In this document: in pieces, positions 31,345 to 39,788 of the stretch | How positions within the stretch are numbered: position 1 is the stretch's first letter | Layout of the letters: the number at the start of each line of letters is the position of its first letter | NCBI GenBank assembly: GCA_947165785.1 | Contig: CAMVBS010000012.1 | Location: 1 to 45,758 of the forward strand | Origin: an uncultured Clostridia bacterium | Lineage (GTDB): Bacteria > Bacillota > Clostridia > Saccharofermentanales > Saccharofermentanaceae | Reading direction: 5' to 3' | Length of the DNA: 45,758 nucleotides | The notes under the pieces: model-generated | Seen by the model: only the letters and a program-made list of their open reading frames with translations | What the model was told of the DNA's origin: nothing | The model's database searches: none | Made by a program: the position numbers and the translations under genes

Positions 31345-32322
31345 ATGGAAATTTCAAATGAAGATTTACAGAAGGCCGTCGAGATAATCAACCGTCTCGG
31401 AGGATATTACGAAGGTAAGGTCGTAGGCCAGAAGTTCCTCGGATTTGCGCTTATCGTAGCAATGATCACGAACGGACACATCCTTTTGGAGTCTGTTCCG
31501 GGTCTTGCTAAGACAACAGCTGCTAAGGTCATGACTGAGGCAGTTAACGGTAAGTTCTCGAGAATCCAGTGTACGCCTGACCTCATCCCTAGTGATATCA
31601 TCGGTACACAGATCTACAACATGAAGGAGAACACATTCGAAGACAAGATCGGTCCTGTCGATGCGAACTTCGTACTCCTCGATGAGATCAACCGTTCCAG
31701 TGCAAAGACTCAGAGTGCCATGCTCGAAGTCATGCAGGAGAAGACAGTAAGTATCGGCGGACATAAGTACCTGCTTCCTGACGTTTTCGTAGTAATCGCT
31801 ACGCAGAACCCTATCGAGCAGGAAGGTACTTACGTTCTTTCAGAGGCTCAGCAGGACAGATTCCTTCTTAAGGTCACACTCGATTATCCTGATTCGGATG
31901 CCGAGATCGAGATCCTCAACAGGATCGAGAAGGATGTATTCTCCGATGTAAGATCTGTTGCTACAGTAGAAGACATCGTATTCCTTCAGAACCTTTGTAA
32001 GGAAGTTTACATCGATAATTCGATCAAGAAGTACATCGTAGATGTAGTACGAGCTACACGTGAGACAGATAAGGTCCTTCCACCTGATCTTGCTCAGTAT
32101 GTTGCAATGGGTGCAAGTACTCGTGCTGCCATCGCGTTCATGGAAGCTGCCAAGGCAGTTGCGCTCATCAACGGAAGAGGTCACGTAATTCCTGATGACG
32201 TTAAAGTAATGAGATATCCGATCCTCCGTCACAGGATCATGCTCAACTTCTCTGCTATTGCCGACGGCATCAAGGAAGAGAAGATCATCGACGCAATTCT
32301 TGGAACAGTACCTACACCATGA
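31345..32322 (+). CDS. MoxR-family AAA+ ATPase
   Basis: It is expected to act as a chaperone-like ATPase for von Willebrand A partners. Walker A is VPGLAKTT around residues 51-58, Walker B is VLLDEINR around 111-118 and sensor 1 is ATQNPIEQEGTY, all characteristic of MoxR proteins. A C-terminal lid domain follows (STRAAIAFMEAAKAVALINGRGHVIPDDVK). The 325-residue length is normal. It heads a six-gene operon, and its stop overlaps the next start by four bases (ATGA). Confidence 0.95.
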   Translation: MEISNEDLQKAVEIINRLGGYYEGKVVGQKFLGFALIVAMITNGHILLESVPGLAKTTAAKVMTEAVNGKFSRIQCTPDLIPSDIIGTQIYNMKENTFEDKIGPVDANFVLLDEINRSSAKTQSAMLEVMQEKTVSIGGHKYLLPDVFVVIATQNPIEQEGTYVLSEAQQDRFLLKVTLDYPDSDAEIEILNRIEKDVFSDVRSVATVEDIVFLQNLCKEVYIDNSIKKYIVDVVRATRETDKVLPPDLAQYVAMGASTRAAIAFMEAAKAVALINGRGHVIPDDVKVMRYPILRHRIMLNFSAIADGIKEEKIIDAILGTVPTP

Positions 32323-33203
32323 GACTGAATTATATTTCGCAGATCAAGTCCAACCTCAAAAAGTCGGCTACGATCAGCACCAGGAGACCGTCCTCCAATA
32401 TTCTTGACGGTTCCTATGTGTCAGTCTTCAAAGGAAGAAGCCTTAACTTCGATGATTTGAGGGAATATGTCCCGGGCGATGACGTTAAAGATATCGACTG
32501 GAAAGCAACGGCAAGAAGCCAACAGCCTCTTGTTCGTGAGTATATTGCCGAGAAAAAGCACAATATCATGTTCGTTCTCGACACTAATAAGAGAATGCTC
32601 GCTCATACCAAGGATCTTAACGATAAGAAGGACGTAGCTTTGTATGCTGCCGGTACTCTTGCTTATCTTGTAAGCAGGAACGGTGACTATATCAGTGCGG
32701 TCTTCTCATCTGAAAAGGGTATGAGACGTTTTCCTTTCAAGACAGGTCTTATGAATGTCGAGAACATCCTGCAGACATATGACAAGGATATTAATCGTAA
32801 GAATGAATCGAGCGTCGTAAAGGCACTCGAATACATCATGCGTAATATCAGAAGGAGGATGATCATAATCATCGTAACGGATATGGAAGGTAAGAGAGCC
32901 ATTTCCGAACAGCTCCTTAAGAGACTCGTGACCATGCATGATGTCCTTTTCCTTAATATCAGTGATACGGATGCATTCGGTGACAACATCTATGATGTTG
33001 AGTCATTTAAGATGCTTCCGGATTTCTTTACTAAGGATAAGAAACTTCTAAAGCGTGAGATGAAGCGCAAGGAAGAGATAGAGAAAGAATCAGCCGAGAA
33101 GCTCAAGAAGACGGGTATCGTTACTACGACACTCGACAACACAGATGATATTTCCATCAGGCTTACCGAGCTTTTGGCCAGACATAAACTGGAGAAACGA
33201 TAA
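32319..33203 (+). CDS. DUF58 domain protein
   Basis: The hallmark DUF58 block GRSLNFDDLREYVPGDDVKDIDWKATARS is present, followed by REYIAEKKHNIMFVLDTNKRM, the start of a VWA-like fold whose MIDAS is degenerate (DTNKR instead of DxSxS). DUF58 proteins accompany MoxR ATPases and VWA proteins in nearly all Bat-like operons, where their biochemical role is unresolved. There is no membrane segment in this copy. The start overlaps the MoxR stop and the stop overlaps the next start. Confidence 0.93.
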   Translation: MRLNYISQIKSNLKKSATISTRRPSSNILDGSYVSVFKGRSLNFDDLREYVPGDDVKDIDWKATARSQQPLVREYIAEKKHNIMFVLDTNKRMLAHTKDLNDKKDVALYAAGTLAYLVSRNGDYISAVFSSEKGMRRFPFKTGLMNVENILQTYDKDINRKNESSVVKALEYIMRNIRRRMIIIIVTDMEGKRAISEQLLKRLVTMHDVLFLNISDTDAFGDNIYDVESFKMLPDFFTKDKKLLKREMKRKEEIEKESAEKLKKTGIVTTTLDNTDDISIRLTELLARHKLEKR

Positions 33204-33679
33204 TGAGAACAAATGTAGGTGTACAAAATCCGACATCCTATGCTATTTGGCCTATGATCCTCATGGGTGTCATTATCGTAGGAATTATTCTCGGACTTAT
33301 CATTAATTATCTTGTTAAGAAATTCAAGAAGCCTAAGAAACCGAAGCCGGTCGTTGTTAAGCCGCCGGTCGTTAATGTTACTTCTCTTAAGAGCAAGTAT
33401 ATCAAGATGCTCGACGATCTCAGCAATGATTTCGTTCAGGAGAAGGTTACGCTTCGTGTCGGTTTCCAGCGCATGAGTTCCATAATAAGAAACTTTGTTT
33501 TCGAGGCTACGGGCATCAAGGTTCAGAACTATACCCTTGATGAGATCAGGTCCATCGGACTTCCGAAGCTCGATGAACTCGTTACGGAGTACTATAACCC
33601 TGAATTCGCCAAGATGAGTGAGGGTGACTTCGTTGAGTCAATGCTTAAGACTAAGAAGGTGATAGAGCAATGGAAATAA
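33203..33679 (+). CDS. Single-helix membrane protein of the MoxR/Bat operon
   Basis: The 158-residue protein has one N-terminal membrane helix (IWPMILMGVIIVGIILGLIINYLV) followed by a Lys/Pro-rich juxtamembrane stretch and a helical cytoplasmic domain (SLKSKYIKMLDDLSNDFVQEKVTLRVGFQRMSSIIRNFVFEATG). Its place between DUF58 and VWA genes and its layout recall DUF4381 proteins of other Bat-type operons. Its reading frame overlaps the following VWA gene by ten bases and the preceding gene by one. Confidence 0.8.
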   Translation: MRTNVGVQNPTSYAIWPMILMGVIIVGIILGLIINYLVKKFKKPKKPKPVVVKPPVVNVTSLKSKYIKMLDDLSNDFVQEKVTLRVGFQRMSSIIRNFVFEATGIKVQNYTLDEIRSIGLPKLDELVTEYYNPEFAKMSEGDFVESMLKTKKVIEQWK

Positions 33680-34677
33680 GATATAAGATAATGCTTTACA
33701 TTTCCATAGCATTGTTTGCGGTACTCTTTATCCTTATGTTCGTTCCTTTCATAAAGGCAAAGGGAAAATACAAGAAGGGCAAGAAAGTTGCCAATGCTTT
33801 CTACATCAAGGAAGATACTTACTTCAAGAGAAAGATGGCAACATATAAGGTCGTTACTTTTATGCTCATCCTGACTTGCTGTCTGAGCATATTGTTATCT
33901 TCCTTCATGCTCTGCCGACCATATAGGACAGAGACCGTCATAGAGGAAAAGTACACGAGAGATATCTTCCTTTGTATCGATATCTCCTCATCAGTTGACT
34001 CCCTTAACGCACACCTTATCGATGAGCTCAAGGGTATCGTTGATGAGATGCAGGGTGAGAGATTCGGACTTGTTATCTTTAATACTTCACCTGTACTTTT
34101 GGTACCTCTTACGGATGACTATGAGTACATTATCGAACAGCTCGATGCTATCGAGACTCAGCTCGAGAGACGTTGGAAAGATCCTTACTATGAGGATCCG
34201 TATATTACATCCGGTACATTGATCGGAAGCGAGATGCGAGGCAGTTCCCTTATCGGTGACGGTCTTGCTGCTACAGTATTCGATTTCCCGGACCTCGAGG
34301 AAGATGCCGAAAGAACAAGACTTGTTATCTTCTCAACGGATAACGAGCTTAACGGTACGCCTTTTATTACTCTTGAAGAGGCTTCCAACCTTTGCATAAA
34401 GCACAATGTTCAGGTATACGGCATCGGCGTCAAGGACATGAACAAAAAAAGAAGGCAGGAGATGAAGAATGCGGCTGAAAATACCGGCGGTAAGTTCTAC
34501 GAGTACGGTATTTCAGGTGATTGCTCATCCATCGTTGCCGATATCCAGCGTGAGACGAAGAGCTTCATTAATCAGGAGCCTGTCGTTAAAGAAACAGAAG
34601 TGGTTGAAGCTCCGTTTGTCATCCTGTTTGCCTGCGTGGCATGCATGATGGTATTTACGAAGATAGCCAAGTATTAA
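33670..34677 (+). CDS. Membrane-anchored VWA protein (BatA-like)
   Basis: Hydrophobic segments lie near residues 8-24 and 55-80, and another lies at the C-terminus (FVILFACVACMMVF). Between them is a von Willebrand A domain with an intact metal-ion-dependent adhesion site, D104-x-S106-x-S108 (FLCIDISSSVD). Later elements are GLVIFNTSPVLLVPLTDDY and VIFSTDNELNG. This is the BatA layout: a VWA domain held at the membrane between helices. Overlap with the upstream gene indicates coupled translation. Confidence 0.92.
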   Translation: MEIRYKIMLYISIALFAVLFILMFVPFIKAKGKYKKGKKVANAFYIKEDTYFKRKMATYKVVTFMLILTCCLSILLSSFMLCRPYRTETVIEEKYTRDIFLCIDISSSVDSLNAHLIDELKGIVDEMQGERFGLVIFNTSPVLLVPLTDDYEYIIEQLDAIETQLERRWKDPYYEDPYITSGTLIGSEMRGSSLIGDGLAATVFDFPDLEEDAERTRLVIFSTDNELNGTPFITLEEASNLCIKHNVQVYGIGVKDMNKKRRQEMKNAAENTGGKFYEYGISGDCSSIVADIQRETKSFINQEPVVKETEVVEAPFVILFACVACMMVFTKIAKY

Positions 34678-34691
34678 GGAAAGGAGAGCAT

Positions 34692-35633
34692 ATGAAAGTA
34701 GATCCTATCTTACCAATATGGCTAATGGCGATCCTCTGCGTTGGTCTTCTTGTCCTTAAGCGTAAGGGCATTGTTCCTTTTATCAGACAGATCGTCATCG
34801 TTCTTCTCCTTTTTGCGATCAATCTGAGGATAATGATCCCGGATCAGAACCATGTCATTAAGGAACCTAAGATCGATGCTTATGTACTTTTTGTTCTTGA
34901 CGATACATTGAGTATGCTTGCCGATGATATGCCTGATGACAAGACCAGACTTGAATGTGCAGTTGAGGATTGCAATTACATAGTCGAGAAACTAGGCGGA
35001 TCTAGCTTCGGTATTATCTCTTTTAACAACCAGGCTCAGATCCTTACACCTTATACGAACGACCCGTCTCACATTAAGAGCATGCTCAAGACGGTAACTC
35101 CTCTTGAAGAGCACTACGCTCAGGGAAGTTCGTTCAACCTTACTCAGGATCTTATCGTTGAGCAGGTCGATGTTGTAAGGGAAAAAGAAGATACAAACGT
35201 ATATGTATTCTTTATCTCAGACGGTGAGAATAACAAAGACGAGAAGATCCATTCCTTTGCGGAAGTAGGCGAACATATTGACGGCGGTGCCGTATTGGGT
35301 TATGGTACGACTAAGGGTGGCAATATGACCATCAAGACTAAGACAGCCAGCGGTATCAGAGAAGATATCGTTCTTGACAGTAACGGAAAGAAGGCTGTTT
35401 CTAAGCTTGACGCGGACAATCTCAAGGATATTGCCGATCAGATGCAGGTAGAATACGTCAACATGAAGGAAAGCTCCGATGTTGACAATGTAATTAATGG
35501 AATATTGGATAACGTAAAAGTGACGCAGCAGGAAAGAACGGAAGTAGCTTACCTTGAGACCTACTATTACTTCCTCCCGCCACTTATAGTTCTTCTTTTG
35601 TGGGACTTTGTCCACTATAAGAGAAAGGTGTGA
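34692..35633 (+). CDS. Second membrane-anchored VWA protein (BatB-like)
   Basis: The start is ATG 34692 after AAAGGAGAG. Two N-terminal hydrophobic segments (PIWLMAILCVGLLVL and FIRQIVIVLLLFAINLRIMI) precede a VWA domain with a variant MIDAS, D70-x-T72-x-S74 (VLDDTLSM). GIISFNNQAQILTPY and FFISDGENN follow, and the C-terminus has another helix (YYYFLPPLIVLLLWDFVHY). A pair of VWA membrane proteins is typical of Bat operons. The two differ enough in sequence that they are not a recent duplication. Confidence 0.92.
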   Translation: MKVDPILPIWLMAILCVGLLVLKRKGIVPFIRQIVIVLLLFAINLRIMIPDQNHVIKEPKIDAYVLFVLDDTLSMLADDMPDDKTRLECAVEDCNYIVEKLGGSSFGIISFNNQAQILTPYTNDPSHIKSMLKTVTPLEEHYAQGSSFNLTQDLIVEQVDVVREKEDTNVYVFFISDGENNKDEKIHSFAEVGEHIDGGAVLGYGTTKGGNMTIKTKTASGIREDIVLDSNGKKAVSKLDADNLKDIADQMQVEYVNMKESSDVDNVINGILDNVKVTQQERTEVAYLETYYYFLPPLIVLLLWDFVHYKRKV

Positions 35634-35638
35634 TACAT

Positions 35639-37333
35639 ATGAGAAAGATTTTGTATGGACTCGGCGTAATGTGTTCATTGGCTCTTATGCTCTATGGTCT
35701 GAACTTTTTCAGTAACGAGATCGTAAATGAGAAGATGAGAGACAATGTCTTTGACAGAAACGACTTCGCATGGCTCGGATTCATGGAACCTTGGAAGGAA
35801 CCGTATAATCTCGGCACGAACTACTTGAAGCAACGTAAATATGACGAGGCTGTTGAGCAGTTCGATAAGGCTCTGGGCTACAATATGTCAGATGACAACG
35901 AAGTTGATATCAGGGTTAACAAGGCTCTTGCATTGACACTTCCAATTAAGGAAGAAGAGGTAAACGACAGAAACCTTGACGAAGTTATAACTAAGCTCGA
36001 AGGTGCTGAACAGGTCTTGCTCGAGAAGGATTTCGCCAAAGAAGACGGTGACGGAGAATATGAGATCTCCCAGGAACTCTACGATGATATCGTTGAATAT
36101 AAGCTCCACCTTCTTGAGGTAGTTTCAACGAGATTTGCTGTCAGCAAGGTAGATTCGGAAAGCGGTGATATGCTCTCCGGTGCCCAGATCCAGATCACCG
36201 GTGTTGATAAGGACGGAAAAGATATCAAGTTCCTTGCTGAAGATATCGAACTCGGACAGGGCGCTTCTATCTATGAAGGCTATGAAGGCAACGGAATCGT
36301 TATTATTTCAGGCAGCTCGCCTACGACAATTAACAAGATATTTGACGGTACATACACGATCCACGAGATCGAGGCTCCTAAGGGATACGATGTAGCTCCG
36401 GATATCGAGTTTACCGTAAAGCATTGTAAGGTGCTTAAGGGTGATAACGAATTCATTACTGAAGCAACAGATTATGAGCCTGCTTACATCACTTTGAATG
36501 ATGAACTCTTTAAGACTGATGTCGAGATCAAAAAGATCGACGATTCCCAGCAATTGCTTCCGGGCGCTATCCTTACGCTTACCGGTGTGGATTTTAACGG
36601 TAATCCTGTCGTTATCCCTGAGGAATCAGTTGTCCTCGGAGAAGACGCTTACTTTAATGAAGCAAGCAGCGGCGAAGGCGTAAGTTTCGTAACCGGTAAG
36701 ACAGATACAGTCATTAAAGGTCTTGTAGACGGTACATATACACTCCACGAGGACAAAGCTCCTAAGGGATTTATGGAGGCCCAGGATATAGAGTTTACTA
36801 TCGAGGGCGGCATTGTTAAGGGTGAACAGGATGTTGTTTACCCTGCTGTCGGAGATCAGATCGCAATCGTTCAGATGGTCGACACCGATGATCCTCAAGG
36901 CGGCGGAGATGGCGACGGTAATAGCGGCGGAGGCGGCGAAGGCGAAGGCGGTGAAGGCGGCTCCGGCGAAGGCCAAGAAGGCGAAGGCGGAGGTTCTGAT
37001 ACCGAAGACGGTCAAACCGGCGGCGGTGGAGAAGACGAATCAGAGGGCGGCGGAAGCAATGGTCCTCAGGATCAGGGTGATTCCGGCGATCAGCAGAATG
37101 ATGGTGACCAGTCCAATCAGGGCGGTAACGGCGAAGATGAGGAAACCGACAATAAGGGCGGTAACCAGGACGGCGATACCAAGGCTGACGGAAGCGGTAA
37201 ATCAGCTGAAGATGCCGAACAGGAACTCAAGGGCAACCTCGAGGATCTTCAGGATCAGGCTAACTCAGATCGCTCCAATGACGTAGCAGGTGATGTGCCT
37301 TATGACTATGATTATGATGGTGATAAGTGGTAA
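35639..37333 (+). CDS. TPR-like, double SpaA/Cna-B-like, Gly/Glu-rich protein ending the MoxR/Bat operon
   Basis: The start is ATG 35639 after AAAGGTG, which overlaps the preceding gene's end. One N-terminal membrane helix (ILYGLGVMCSLALMLYGLNFF) is followed by a TPR-like segment (EPYNLGTNYLKQRKYDEAVEQFDKAL), as expected for BatC-type partners. Residues about 165-285 and 290-405 are two SpaA/Cna-B-like domains. Both have the K-(V/I)-D start (AVSKVDSESGDMLSGAQI; VEIKKIDDSQQLLPGAIL) and an E-x-x-APKG block (IHEIEAPKGYD; LHEDKAPKGFM), the positions where isopeptide-forming Lys and Glu normally lie. Residues about 415-520 are Gly/Glu/Asp/Gln-rich. The tail ends in a short Tyr/Asp stretch. Cna-B domains usually occur in pilins and adhesins, so this fusion is unusual. 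The function is unknown. Confidence 0.85.
   Translation: MRKILYGLGVMCSLALMLYGLNFFSNEIVNEKMRDNVFDRNDFAWLGFMEPWKEPYNLGTNYLKQRKYDEAVEQFDKALGYNMSDDNEVDIRVNKALALTLPIKEEEVNDRNLDEVITKLEGAEQVLLEKDFAKEDGDGEYEISQELYDDIVEYKLHLLEVVSTRFAVSKVDSESGDMLSGAQIQITGVDKDGKDIKFLAEDIELGQGASIYEGYEGNGIVIISGSSPTTINKIFDGTYTIHEIEAPKGYDVAPDIEFTVKHCKVLKGDNEFITEATDYEPAYITLNDELFKTDVEIKKIDDSQQLLPGAILTLTGVDFNGNPVVIPEESVVLGEDAYFNEASSGEGVSFVTGKTDTVIKGLVDGTYTLHEDKAPKGFMEAQDIEFTIEGGIVKGEQDVVYPAVGDQIAIVQMVDTDDPQGGGDGDGNSGGGGEGEGGEGGSGEGQEGEGGGSDTEDGQTGGGGEDESEGGGSNGPQDQGDSGDQQNDGDQSNQGGNGEDEETDNKGGNQDGDTKADGSGKSAEDAEQELKGNLEDLQDQANSDRSNDVAGDVPYDYDYDGDKW
36895..37200 (+). repeat. Low-complexity GGC/GAA-rich coding repeat
   Basis: This stretch is made of GGCGGA, GGCGAAGGC and GGAGGC-type triplets encoding glycine, glutamate, aspartate and glutamine. 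It is more GC-rich than its surroundings and may vary in length between strains through slippage. It is in frame throughout. Confidence 0.8.
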
Positions 37334-38212
37334 TCAGTAAATAATCATCTTATCGATATTCTCGTCGGAGTATTCGATCTCCGATGAGAACATCCTAAGA
37401 ACATCTAAGAGATCTTCGGATCTCTTTTTTGTTCCCTGAAATACGGAAATTATGATCCTTACCGCTCTGAAAGCAAAGGCGGTAAAAAGGGAAAGGTCCT
37501 CCTCGTCCACGCTTTGAGTAAGGTAGCGGTGGAGAAAATAGAAAGCTACGTTAGAGAAGATCTTTTCTTCAGAAGGCGTGAGCTTTTGCGGCTCAGTCAT
37601 TCCGGCCAGATATGATTCCCAGGCCGGGTCAAGCCGTTCAAGCCCCATGAGAAATCCGTAAAGCTCATCTCTTTTGAATTCTTCGAGCTTCGCGCCGGCA
37701 ATATCGAGGCACTTTTGTGCCTTCTTCTCAAGCGGTTCTGCAGAATTCAGGATATCGAACATCTTTTTTCTTTCCTTCTCGAAAAAGAATTCCTCGTATT
37801 CCCCGTCGTCTTCGATACCGGAATCAACTATGCTGATCGGACCTTTTTCTTCCATGATCAGCCTTGCAGCTTCTTCGCAGCAAAGCCCCATGCCTATCTC
37901 ACCGGGATTTCTGTATCTGGGATGATCAGTACAGATATCGCACAGGCGATCTTCTCCGAGATTAAGGATAAGATCACAAAGACCGCTGCTGTTAAGAAAC
38001 GGGCAGCGATCATTCTCGTCGATCACGAAATGAGGGCAGGGATCTGCGCTTATGGAAGAACGGAGCCTGTCACCGAATTCGGAAGGCTCGGCCATATAGC
38101 TTTTGTAGGTTTCTTCGTCGATGTCGATCTCCCAGCCGATACAGCAGGAATGACGGCAATCTCCGGCCTTGCATTTAAAATCTCTGAATGTGCTTAAAGT
38201 TGTAATTCTCAT
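37334..38212 (-). CDS. FliB-like flagellin lysine N-methylase family protein
   Basis: The 292-residue protein opens with a cysteine cluster (FKCKAGDCRHSCCIGW) and continues with DPCPHF, NDRCPFLNSSGLCDL, DRLCDICTDHPRYR and GLCCEEA, the conserved Cys pattern of FliB and related YkgJ-type proteins, which probably hold an iron-sulfur or zinc centre. Salmonella FliB methylates flagellin lysines. No flagellar gene is in this window, so the target may be elsewhere or different. The gene abuts the convergent MoxR operon with no base between the two stop codons and no terminator. Confidence 0.85.
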   Translation of the reverse strand: MRITTLSTFRDFKCKAGDCRHSCCIGWEIDIDEETYKSYMAEPSEFGDRLRSSISADPCPHFVIDENDRCPFLNSSGLCDLILNLGEDRLCDICTDHPRYRNPGEIGMGLCCEEAARLIMEEKGPISIVDSGIEDDGEYEEFFFEKERKKMFDILNSAEPLEKKAQKCLDIAGAKLEEFKRDELYGFLMGLERLDPAWESYLAGMTEPQKLTPSEEKIFSNVAFYFLHRYLTQSVDEEDLSLFTAFAFRAVRIIISVFQGTKKRSEDLLDVLRMFSSEIEYSDENIDKMIIY

Positions 38213-38369: not shown

Positions 38370-39788
38370 ATGAAAAGGTTAGATAAGTCGGTTTCTGTTA
38401 TCTTGGCAGTAACCATGCTTGTTTCTCTTGTCGGCTGTGATTCTTTCAGGAACAACAACGATAACGGAGACAACGATAAAGAAGAAGAACTAATAACTCA
38501 GGAGGCAGCGGTTGCTGTTGCCGAGGAGTATTCAAAGGCCCTTATCGCTCTTGACAGCGCTAAGGTCATCGAACTGTCCTCCAAGATCTCTGATTCCAAT
38601 TCGGAGATGATCTCGAACTATGAGTTTTACGAGGAGTCGAAGAATGTCTATGAGCACTGGCTCACGACTTTCGAATATACGATCGTTGAAACTGAGATCG
38701 ATATCGATGAGGATGAGGGAACTGTTCCGGTGACCATCAGTTATGTTGATCTTAATTCCGTTGCCACGGATTCCAATCTTGAGTCCGAGTGGCTTGCCGG
38801 CATCGATGAGTGCGAAGAGAAGAAGGAGATGTCCTTTGATATCAAGCTTAAGTACGATGATGACGATGGTAAGATCTATGTTTCCAACAGCGATGATATC
38901 GTTGAGGTCTTCTACTCCGATATCCTTAACACGTATATCTATGTAAACACTTTTGTTTACTATGATAATGCAGTTACGGGAAGCTGGTCTGAGGATTCAT
39001 ATAAGACGACCGAGAATCTTAAGTTCGACATTACATTCTCCGATATCCCGGCACTTGACGGAACGGATGTCCTGGTTTCTATCGAGGACCCTGATTATGA
39101 TGAAGTGTATACTGAGACGATCACTTTTGAAGCAGGAAAGACGGTTACTTTTACTTGTAAGCCGAGTGATGCCGGTGTGGTAGAGTTCGAGAAGGGTTAC
39201 TATAGCATTAACATCACCAACGAGAACAGTAATTTCAGTTTCGTTGCCAGTGTAAAGGTTGAGAGGCCTGAACTCGAGCCGAATGACGCGGATGGATCCA
39301 TGATAATTGCTCCTAATGAGCAGGTACTGGGTTCTTTTGATTTCGAGACCGGTTTTTATACGAATGAATTCTTTGGTTTCAGATATGAGGTCGTTGATGA
39401 TCTTATACCTGTAGAAGCTGAACAGTTTCAGGGCATGATGGATAACGAGAAACAGTTGAAGTATATGGTTATCGATAACTTTGCCGGTTCGCCTGAAGGT
39501 GATGTTACGATATTAAACCTTGTTGGCAAATTCAATACGAGTTATGTCAATAAAGACGATCCGATGTCCACATTCCTCGGTATTTTGGAAAACCAGGGAG
39601 TCGAATATGAGAAGATCAAGGTAGGCGATATTGATTTTTATAAATACAACAATATGGGCACCGATTATTTCATGACGGAGAAAGACGGTTATCTCTTTAT
39701 CTTCTGCATGTTTTCGAGAACAGATGCTTCAATAGATGATTTTATCGCAACATTTGAGCAGATCGAAGCTAAGGAGGGGAATATATGA
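38370..39788 (+). CDS. Lipoprotein of unknown function (472 aa)
   Basis: The signal ends in the lipobox LVGC (VTMLVSLVGCDSF), so the protein is lipid-anchored outside the cell. A short Asn/Asp/Glu-rich spacer follows. Residues about 45-170 resemble a helical plus beta domain like NTF2/DUF4878-type lipoprotein domains (AVAVAEEYSKALIALDSAKVIEL). The middle is beta-rich and Ig-like (LDGTDVLVSIEDPDYDEVYTETITFEAG). The C-terminal ~150 residues (FDFETGFYTNEFFGFRYEVVDDLIPVEAEQF) resemble domains found beside small membrane proteins in Clostridia. AAAGG precedes the ATG by seven bases. The stop overlaps the start of the next gene (ATGA). Confidence 0.8.
   Translation: MKRLDKSVSVILAVTMLVSLVGCDSFRNNNDNGDNDKEEELITQEAAVAVAEEYSKALIALDSAKVIELSSKISDSNSEMISNYEFYEESKNVYEHWLTTFEYTIVETEIDIDEDEGTVPVTISYVDLNSVATDSNLESEWLAGIDECEEKKEMSFDIKLKYDDDDGKIYVSNSDDIVEVFYSDILNTYIYVNTFVYYDNAVTGSWSEDSYKTTENLKFDITFSDIPALDGTDVLVSIEDPDYDEVYTETITFEAGKTVTFTCKPSDAGVVEFEKGYYSINITNENSNFSFVASVKVERPELEPNDADGSMIIAPNEQVLGSFDFETGFYTNEFFGFRYEVVDDLIPVEAEQFQGMMDNEKQLKYMVIDNFAGSPEGDVTILNLVGKFNTSYVNKDDPMSTFLGILENQGVEYEKIKVGDIDFYKYNNMGTDYFMTEKDGYLFIFCMFSRTDASIDDFIATFEQIEAKEGNI

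Follow-up and report, generated by a model that had tools for sequence, protein, structure and literature searches.

The window, a stretch of 45,758 nucleotides, comes from a rumen Clostridia bacterium and carries six plus-strand genes between positions 31345 and 37333, which overlap or nearly touch. In order, they encode a MoxR-type ATPase, a DUF58 protein, a small protein with one transmembrane (TM) helix, here called p158, two membrane proteins with a VWA domain (VWA1 and VWA2), and a last protein in which a TPR-like region is followed by two SpaA domains and an acidic tail. An earlier note on this DNA had described the six-gene set accurately, every reading frame being found in its place, and the naming of a MoxR/Bat-type set agreed with the Pfam matches for MoxR, DUF58, and both VWA domains. 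The features are as follows.

31345..32322, plus strand: MoxR-type AAA+ ATPase, 325 aa (Pfam AAA_3, 9e-56; AAA_lid_2)
32319..33203, plus strand: DUF58 protein, 294 aa (Pfam DUF58, 8.2e-32)
33203..33679, plus strand: p158, 158 aa, with one N-terminal TM helix, a Lys-rich linker, and a helical domain (hydropathy, model)
33670..34677, plus strand: VWA protein 1, with two N-terminal TM segments, a VWA domain, and a C-terminal TM segment (Pfam VWA, 4.5e-9)
34692..35633, plus strand: VWA protein 2 (Pfam VWA_2, 4.6e-11)
35639..37333, plus strand: TPR-SpaA-SpaA-acidic tail protein, 564 aa (Pfam, relatives)
35648..35704, plus strand: N-terminal TM anchor of the last protein, residues 4-22 (hydropathy 1.66, N-terminal positive charge)
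35801..36121, plus strand: TPR-like helical region, residues 55-161 (TPR_2, 1.1e-4; model helices)
36125..36505, plus strand: SpaA/CnaB domain 1, residues 163-289, with Lys170, Glu243, and Asp288 (Pfam, 3.7e-10)
36509..36886, plus strand: SpaA/CnaB domain 2, residues 291-416, with Lys299, Glu371, and Asp415 (Pfam, 2.6e-9)
36899..37243, plus strand: Gly/Asp/Glu-rich spacer, presumably disordered (composition, model confidence)
37244..37330, plus strand: conserved C-terminal motif of a short helix-like stretch, an Arg in most copies, and a terminal Trp (orthologue comparison)

The VWA2 reading frame is open from the ATG at 34641, and the proteins of three relatives (313 aa) match a start at 34692, which is the more likely true start. 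With that start the VWA1 and VWA2 genes do not overlap. The length of 564 residues given for the last protein was borne out by relatives that share its start residue (ATG at 35639). The Walker-type motifs of MoxR (GLAKTT and LLDEIN) were kept in every copy covering them. The first Asp and the Ser of the VWA1 MIDAS were invariant in 46 of 46 sequences, as was the D-x-[TS]-x-S pattern of VWA2 (46/46). No TM segment was predicted by hydropathy for the DUF58 protein.

In p158, the TM helix (residues 15-33) is followed by seven Lys or Arg within 15 residues, and the model contains helices at 10-41, 59-78, 84-103, and 140-155; the helical domain probably lies in the cytoplasm. No convincing Pfam match was obtained for p158, and a Pfam scan of 12 members listed no DUF4381. 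In proteobacterial MoxR-DUF58-DUF4381-VWA-VWA/TPR sets, the gene that separates DUF58 from the first VWA gene encodes a small protein with one TM helix. The operon described here shares this small protein, but in searches of four genomes with E up to 10 the DUF4381 model (PF14316) did not hit p158. The identification of p158 as DUF4381 was thus rejected, and p158 is its positional counterpart.

On the 3' side, a gene for a FliB-like lysine-N-methylase (37334-38212, minus strand; NCBIfam, 4.5e-47) is convergent with the operon and ends beside the stop of its last gene; no counterpart was found at the loci of three close relatives. Further downstream (38370-39788, plus strand) lies a gene for a probable lipoprotein with an LVGC lipobox. 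It occupies the same place 3' of the operon at three related loci (L056, L057, and L058), where it is only 33-35% identical, far below the identity of its neighbours.

The Bat operon of Bacteroides and spirochaetes consists of MoxR, DUF58, BatA, BatB, BatC/TPR, and BatD (PMC5700661, PMC3557215). Common to both systems are MoxR, DUF58, and membrane VWA proteins with a MIDAS, next to a TPR partner that is putative in the operon of the window (PMC5700661, PMC3557215). The operon of the window differs in its additional p158 gene and in the absence of BatD, and its TPR protein is separate, anchored N-terminally, and carries a spacer as well as a terminal Trp. No match to BatD was found in the operon or in the genomes G000, G108, G001, and G271, while the control Bacteroides genome was positive. 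Models of Leptospira BatA and BatB matched the VWA proteins weakly, far below the cut-off. As BatD is missing and p158 is present, we filed the set as Bat-like and not as a Bat operon. The MoxR-vWA ternary conflict systems (PMC7159879) likewise combine MoxR, VWA, and a further protein, but their third components were not seen by Pfam among the six genes, and the present operon is membrane-bound and conserved as one set.

The six genes occurred in constant order in the first 23 genomes examined from the genus, where one contig begins inside MoxR, and at further loci the same order held up to the contig ends. By sequence search, the TPR gene was found in about 65 of 85 genus genomes and p158 in about the same number (65 of 85), the two sets being nearly identical. 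As both genes are present or absent in nearly the same genomes, the system is kept or missing as a unit. The operon was also found in another genus of the family and, with unchanged gene order, in a distant family of the class (seven genomes); strong p158 matches were confined to these two families in a sample of 391 class genomes. The refuting condition set in the earlier note had a mixed outcome: the last gene of homologous operons encodes an orthologous TPR protein rather than an unrelated one, but its SpaA domains are almost always absent.

The last protein matched Pfam SpaA in two stretches (1.6e-18). Scored singly, the domains reached 40.3 and 37.5 bits, both above the cut-off of 23.1, in line with what the earlier note had proposed for them. 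The TPR_2 match stayed below its cut-off (22 bits vs 27), and the helical model of this region (helices 55-65, 69-79, 85-100, 113-131, and 142-161) is of middling confidence and of low confidence up to residue 67. In an AlphaFold2 model built from a four-sequence alignment, pLDDT was mostly 84-93 over residues 171-420, with a dip to 70 near 261-280, and below 50 for residues 1-67. Both SpaA domains were modelled as CnaB-like folds with good confidence. Confidence falls from residue 422, and the modelled stretch ends at 430. The Gly/Glu/Asp-rich character of the tail was evident from its last 144 residues, which include 43 Gly, 25 Asp, and 17 Glu. The protein ends in DYDGDKW and has neither an LPXTG motif nor a C-terminal hydrophobic anchor.

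Domain 2 superimposed on FbaB CnaB2 (2x5p), the source of SpyCatcher/SpyTag, with Z 12.5 and 2.1 A over 96 residues. Cpa (4bug, 2xid) scored about 13 across both domains with a poor overall rmsd, as expected from a different mutual angle of the two domains. From the end points of the FbaB CnaB2 alignment (290-22 and 416-118), Lys299 falls on Lys31 and Asp415 on Asp117. In FbaB CnaB2, the Lys31-Asp117 bond is promoted by Glu77 (PMC7844731), and a survey of isopeptide families includes SpaA (Lys/Glu/Asp) and DUF5979 (Lys/Glu/Asn), found mostly in adhesin stalks (PMC12617251). The domains of the window thus share the fold and the Lys/Glu/Asp register of FbaB CnaB2 and Cpa; they differ in setting, as those belong to Gram-positive surface proteins and these to an N-terminally anchored TPR protein of a MoxR operon. 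In four species, Lys170/Glu243/Asp288 and Lys299/Glu371/Asp415 never vary, though the same is true of many other residues. The isopeptide capability that had been suggested for the domains is accordingly predicted for each of them, and internal Lys-Asp bonds probably form in both. Between L057 and L058, dN/dS was about 0.05 for SpaA domain 1 and 0.23 for domain 2, and both domains look to be under purifying selection in this comparison.

Chance and an assembly chimera were both rejected as the origin of the fusion, since L056, L057, and L058, from independent MAGs of other projects, carry the same fusion at 67-68% identity. In these three, the fusion gene sits in a whole operon with the same flanking genes as in the window. 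The relatives of the window include a MAG from yak omasum. One of the genomes with the SpaA version, G076, is listed as 7% contaminated. Identical TPR proteins were observed in two genera (L077, G076:C189; L125, G167:C24), and given that listing the second operon in G076 is probably contamination.

The N-terminal TM segment and the TPR region are present throughout the relatives, and it is the part behind them that varies. Spacers after the TPR region are PTPTP-rich, Ser/Asp-rich, Gln-rich, made of DGQ repeats, or acidic; in nearly all relatives the spacer is disordered and without SpaA. The SpaA pair exists in four species and is kept in all four of its clade. At the same junction, five species (G001, G017, G090, G097, and G079) carry a DUF5979-like domain. 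It exceeds the Pfam cut-off in G001 (3.4e-7) and gives only weak matches to related families in G097, while in G017, G090, and G079 it was assigned by eye from similarity to these two. Within the TPR region, two Cys and one His (residues 89, 132, and 140) are near-invariant in orthologues and partly or wholly lost in the SpaA clade, which perhaps reflects a lost disulphide or metal site.

In a tree built from the other five proteins of the operon, the SpaA group and the DUF5979-like group are each monophyletic with support of 1.0 and lie far apart. L059, the closest sister of the SpaA clade, has a low-complexity spacer and neither inserted domain. Given two separate supported clades and a sister without either domain, the data are most simply explained by two insertions at one junction, the SpaA pair having arisen once. 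Since the pair is absent from nearly all homologous operons, it is an addition confined to one clade, and the function of the machine cannot be defined by it. On this comparison of sequences, the operon is real and well conserved, the SpaA fusion is a clade-specific elaboration of it, and the SpaA domains are not its conserved working part.

Outside the TPR part, no feature is conserved as strongly as the terminal Trp, which the earlier note does not mention. Trp was the last residue in 60 of 60 distinct complete orthologues, compared with 1.6% Trp in the 59 preceding residues (first 46 proteins), and most orthologues have an Arg about 20-27 residues from the C-terminal end. In the open-access literature, no paper was found that links MoxR operons to SpaA domains or to a terminal Trp.

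Hydropathy and charge suggest that the VWA domains and the TPR protein lie outside the cell and the helical domain of p158 inside; for VWA1, the positive-inside rule suggests an outward-facing domain. MoxR, DUF58, and the helical part of p158 would thus reside in the cell, and the VWA domains and the TPR protein would be held outside by their TM helices. We consider it somewhat more probable than otherwise that the last protein is the outward arm of a Bat-like MoxR/VWA machine, its spacer reinforced by isopeptide domains and its Trp tip probably docking. Such an arm would comprise a membrane anchor, the TPR module, a variable spacer, and the conserved tip. The partner on which this tip probably docks would be the MIDAS site in one of the VWA domains or a target in the envelope. 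VWA MIDAS sites are described as binding extended or unstructured peptides, with MoxR driving release (PMC7159879); this and the conserved MIDAS motifs led us to propose a tethered arm with a docking tip, in a machine that would use the ATPase activity of MoxR. In the SpaA clade, the two domains with their probable Lys-Asp bonds would form a stiff, protease-resistant stalk, and a DUF5979-type domain would provide the same reinforcement in the second clade. Weighing against this reading, a long low-complexity tail follows the SpaA pair, so that the arm as a whole stays flexible, and the spacers of most relatives lack such a domain. A role in the envelope in general and remodelling by MoxR, both raised in the earlier note, are plausible.

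The SpaA domains might instead be neutral passengers, copied by recombination from surface proteins of the genus into a fast-changing low-complexity linker that tolerates them. Spacers vary freely, an inserted domain was found in only nine species of the genus, and SpaA repeats are plentiful in its large surface proteins. At L055 (G001:C6:129000-148900), for example, adjoining genes encode two surface proteins of ~2,900 aa with many SpaA-type repeats. As to a donor in the genome of the window itself, only one other SpaA match was found (a frame of 863 aa), and it was absent among the matches to the window protein, so that no local donor emerged. We nevertheless judge neutral insertion unlikely, as both inserted domain types are stalk domains of the isopeptide kind and retain their key residues, the SpaA pair was retained by all four species of its clade, and the comparison of L057 with L058 points to purifying selection.

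A surface adhesin or pilus-like component, as the earlier note had hinted, is quite improbable. Pilins and adhesins are where SpaA/CnaB domains typically occur, pilus proteins were the best structural matches, and the genome has two sortase matches; on the other hand, the protein is anchored at its N-terminus, shows a conserved Trp-ending motif in place of an LPXTG sorting signal or hydrophobic C-terminal anchor, and has no adhesive domain among its Pfam matches, and orthologues without SpaA keep every other part. We give still less credence to the domains being bait, in which case the machine would act on SpaA-rich surface proteins and its last protein would imitate or pair with these clients. 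SpaA proteins and the operon co-occur in most genomes checked, and a large protein in G028 contains repeats with 41-46% identity to the window domains, but G028 itself gave no match for the TPR and p158 genes, and most operons are without a SpaA domain.

Returning to the outward arm, isopeptide domains were inserted twice, and separately, at the same junction, which suggests that selection favoured a robust spacer and places these domains outside the adhesin, stalk, and sorting settings usually reported (PMC12617251). For further work, the Trp end is a more useful lead than the SpaA fusion: MoxR/VWA operons are widespread, their envelope function is poorly understood, and an arm that varies but invariably ends in Trp gives mutation and binding tests a small and precise target. 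It is a speculative and rather doubtful extension that the Trp tail acts as a built-in ligand, bound by the VWA domains of the same operon or by a fixed target in the envelope, with the spacer setting its reach. If true, the operon would represent a distinct class of MoxR/VWA machine in which ATP-driven changes catch and release a tethered C-terminal peptide, and the isopeptide domains would serve as a molecular ruler.
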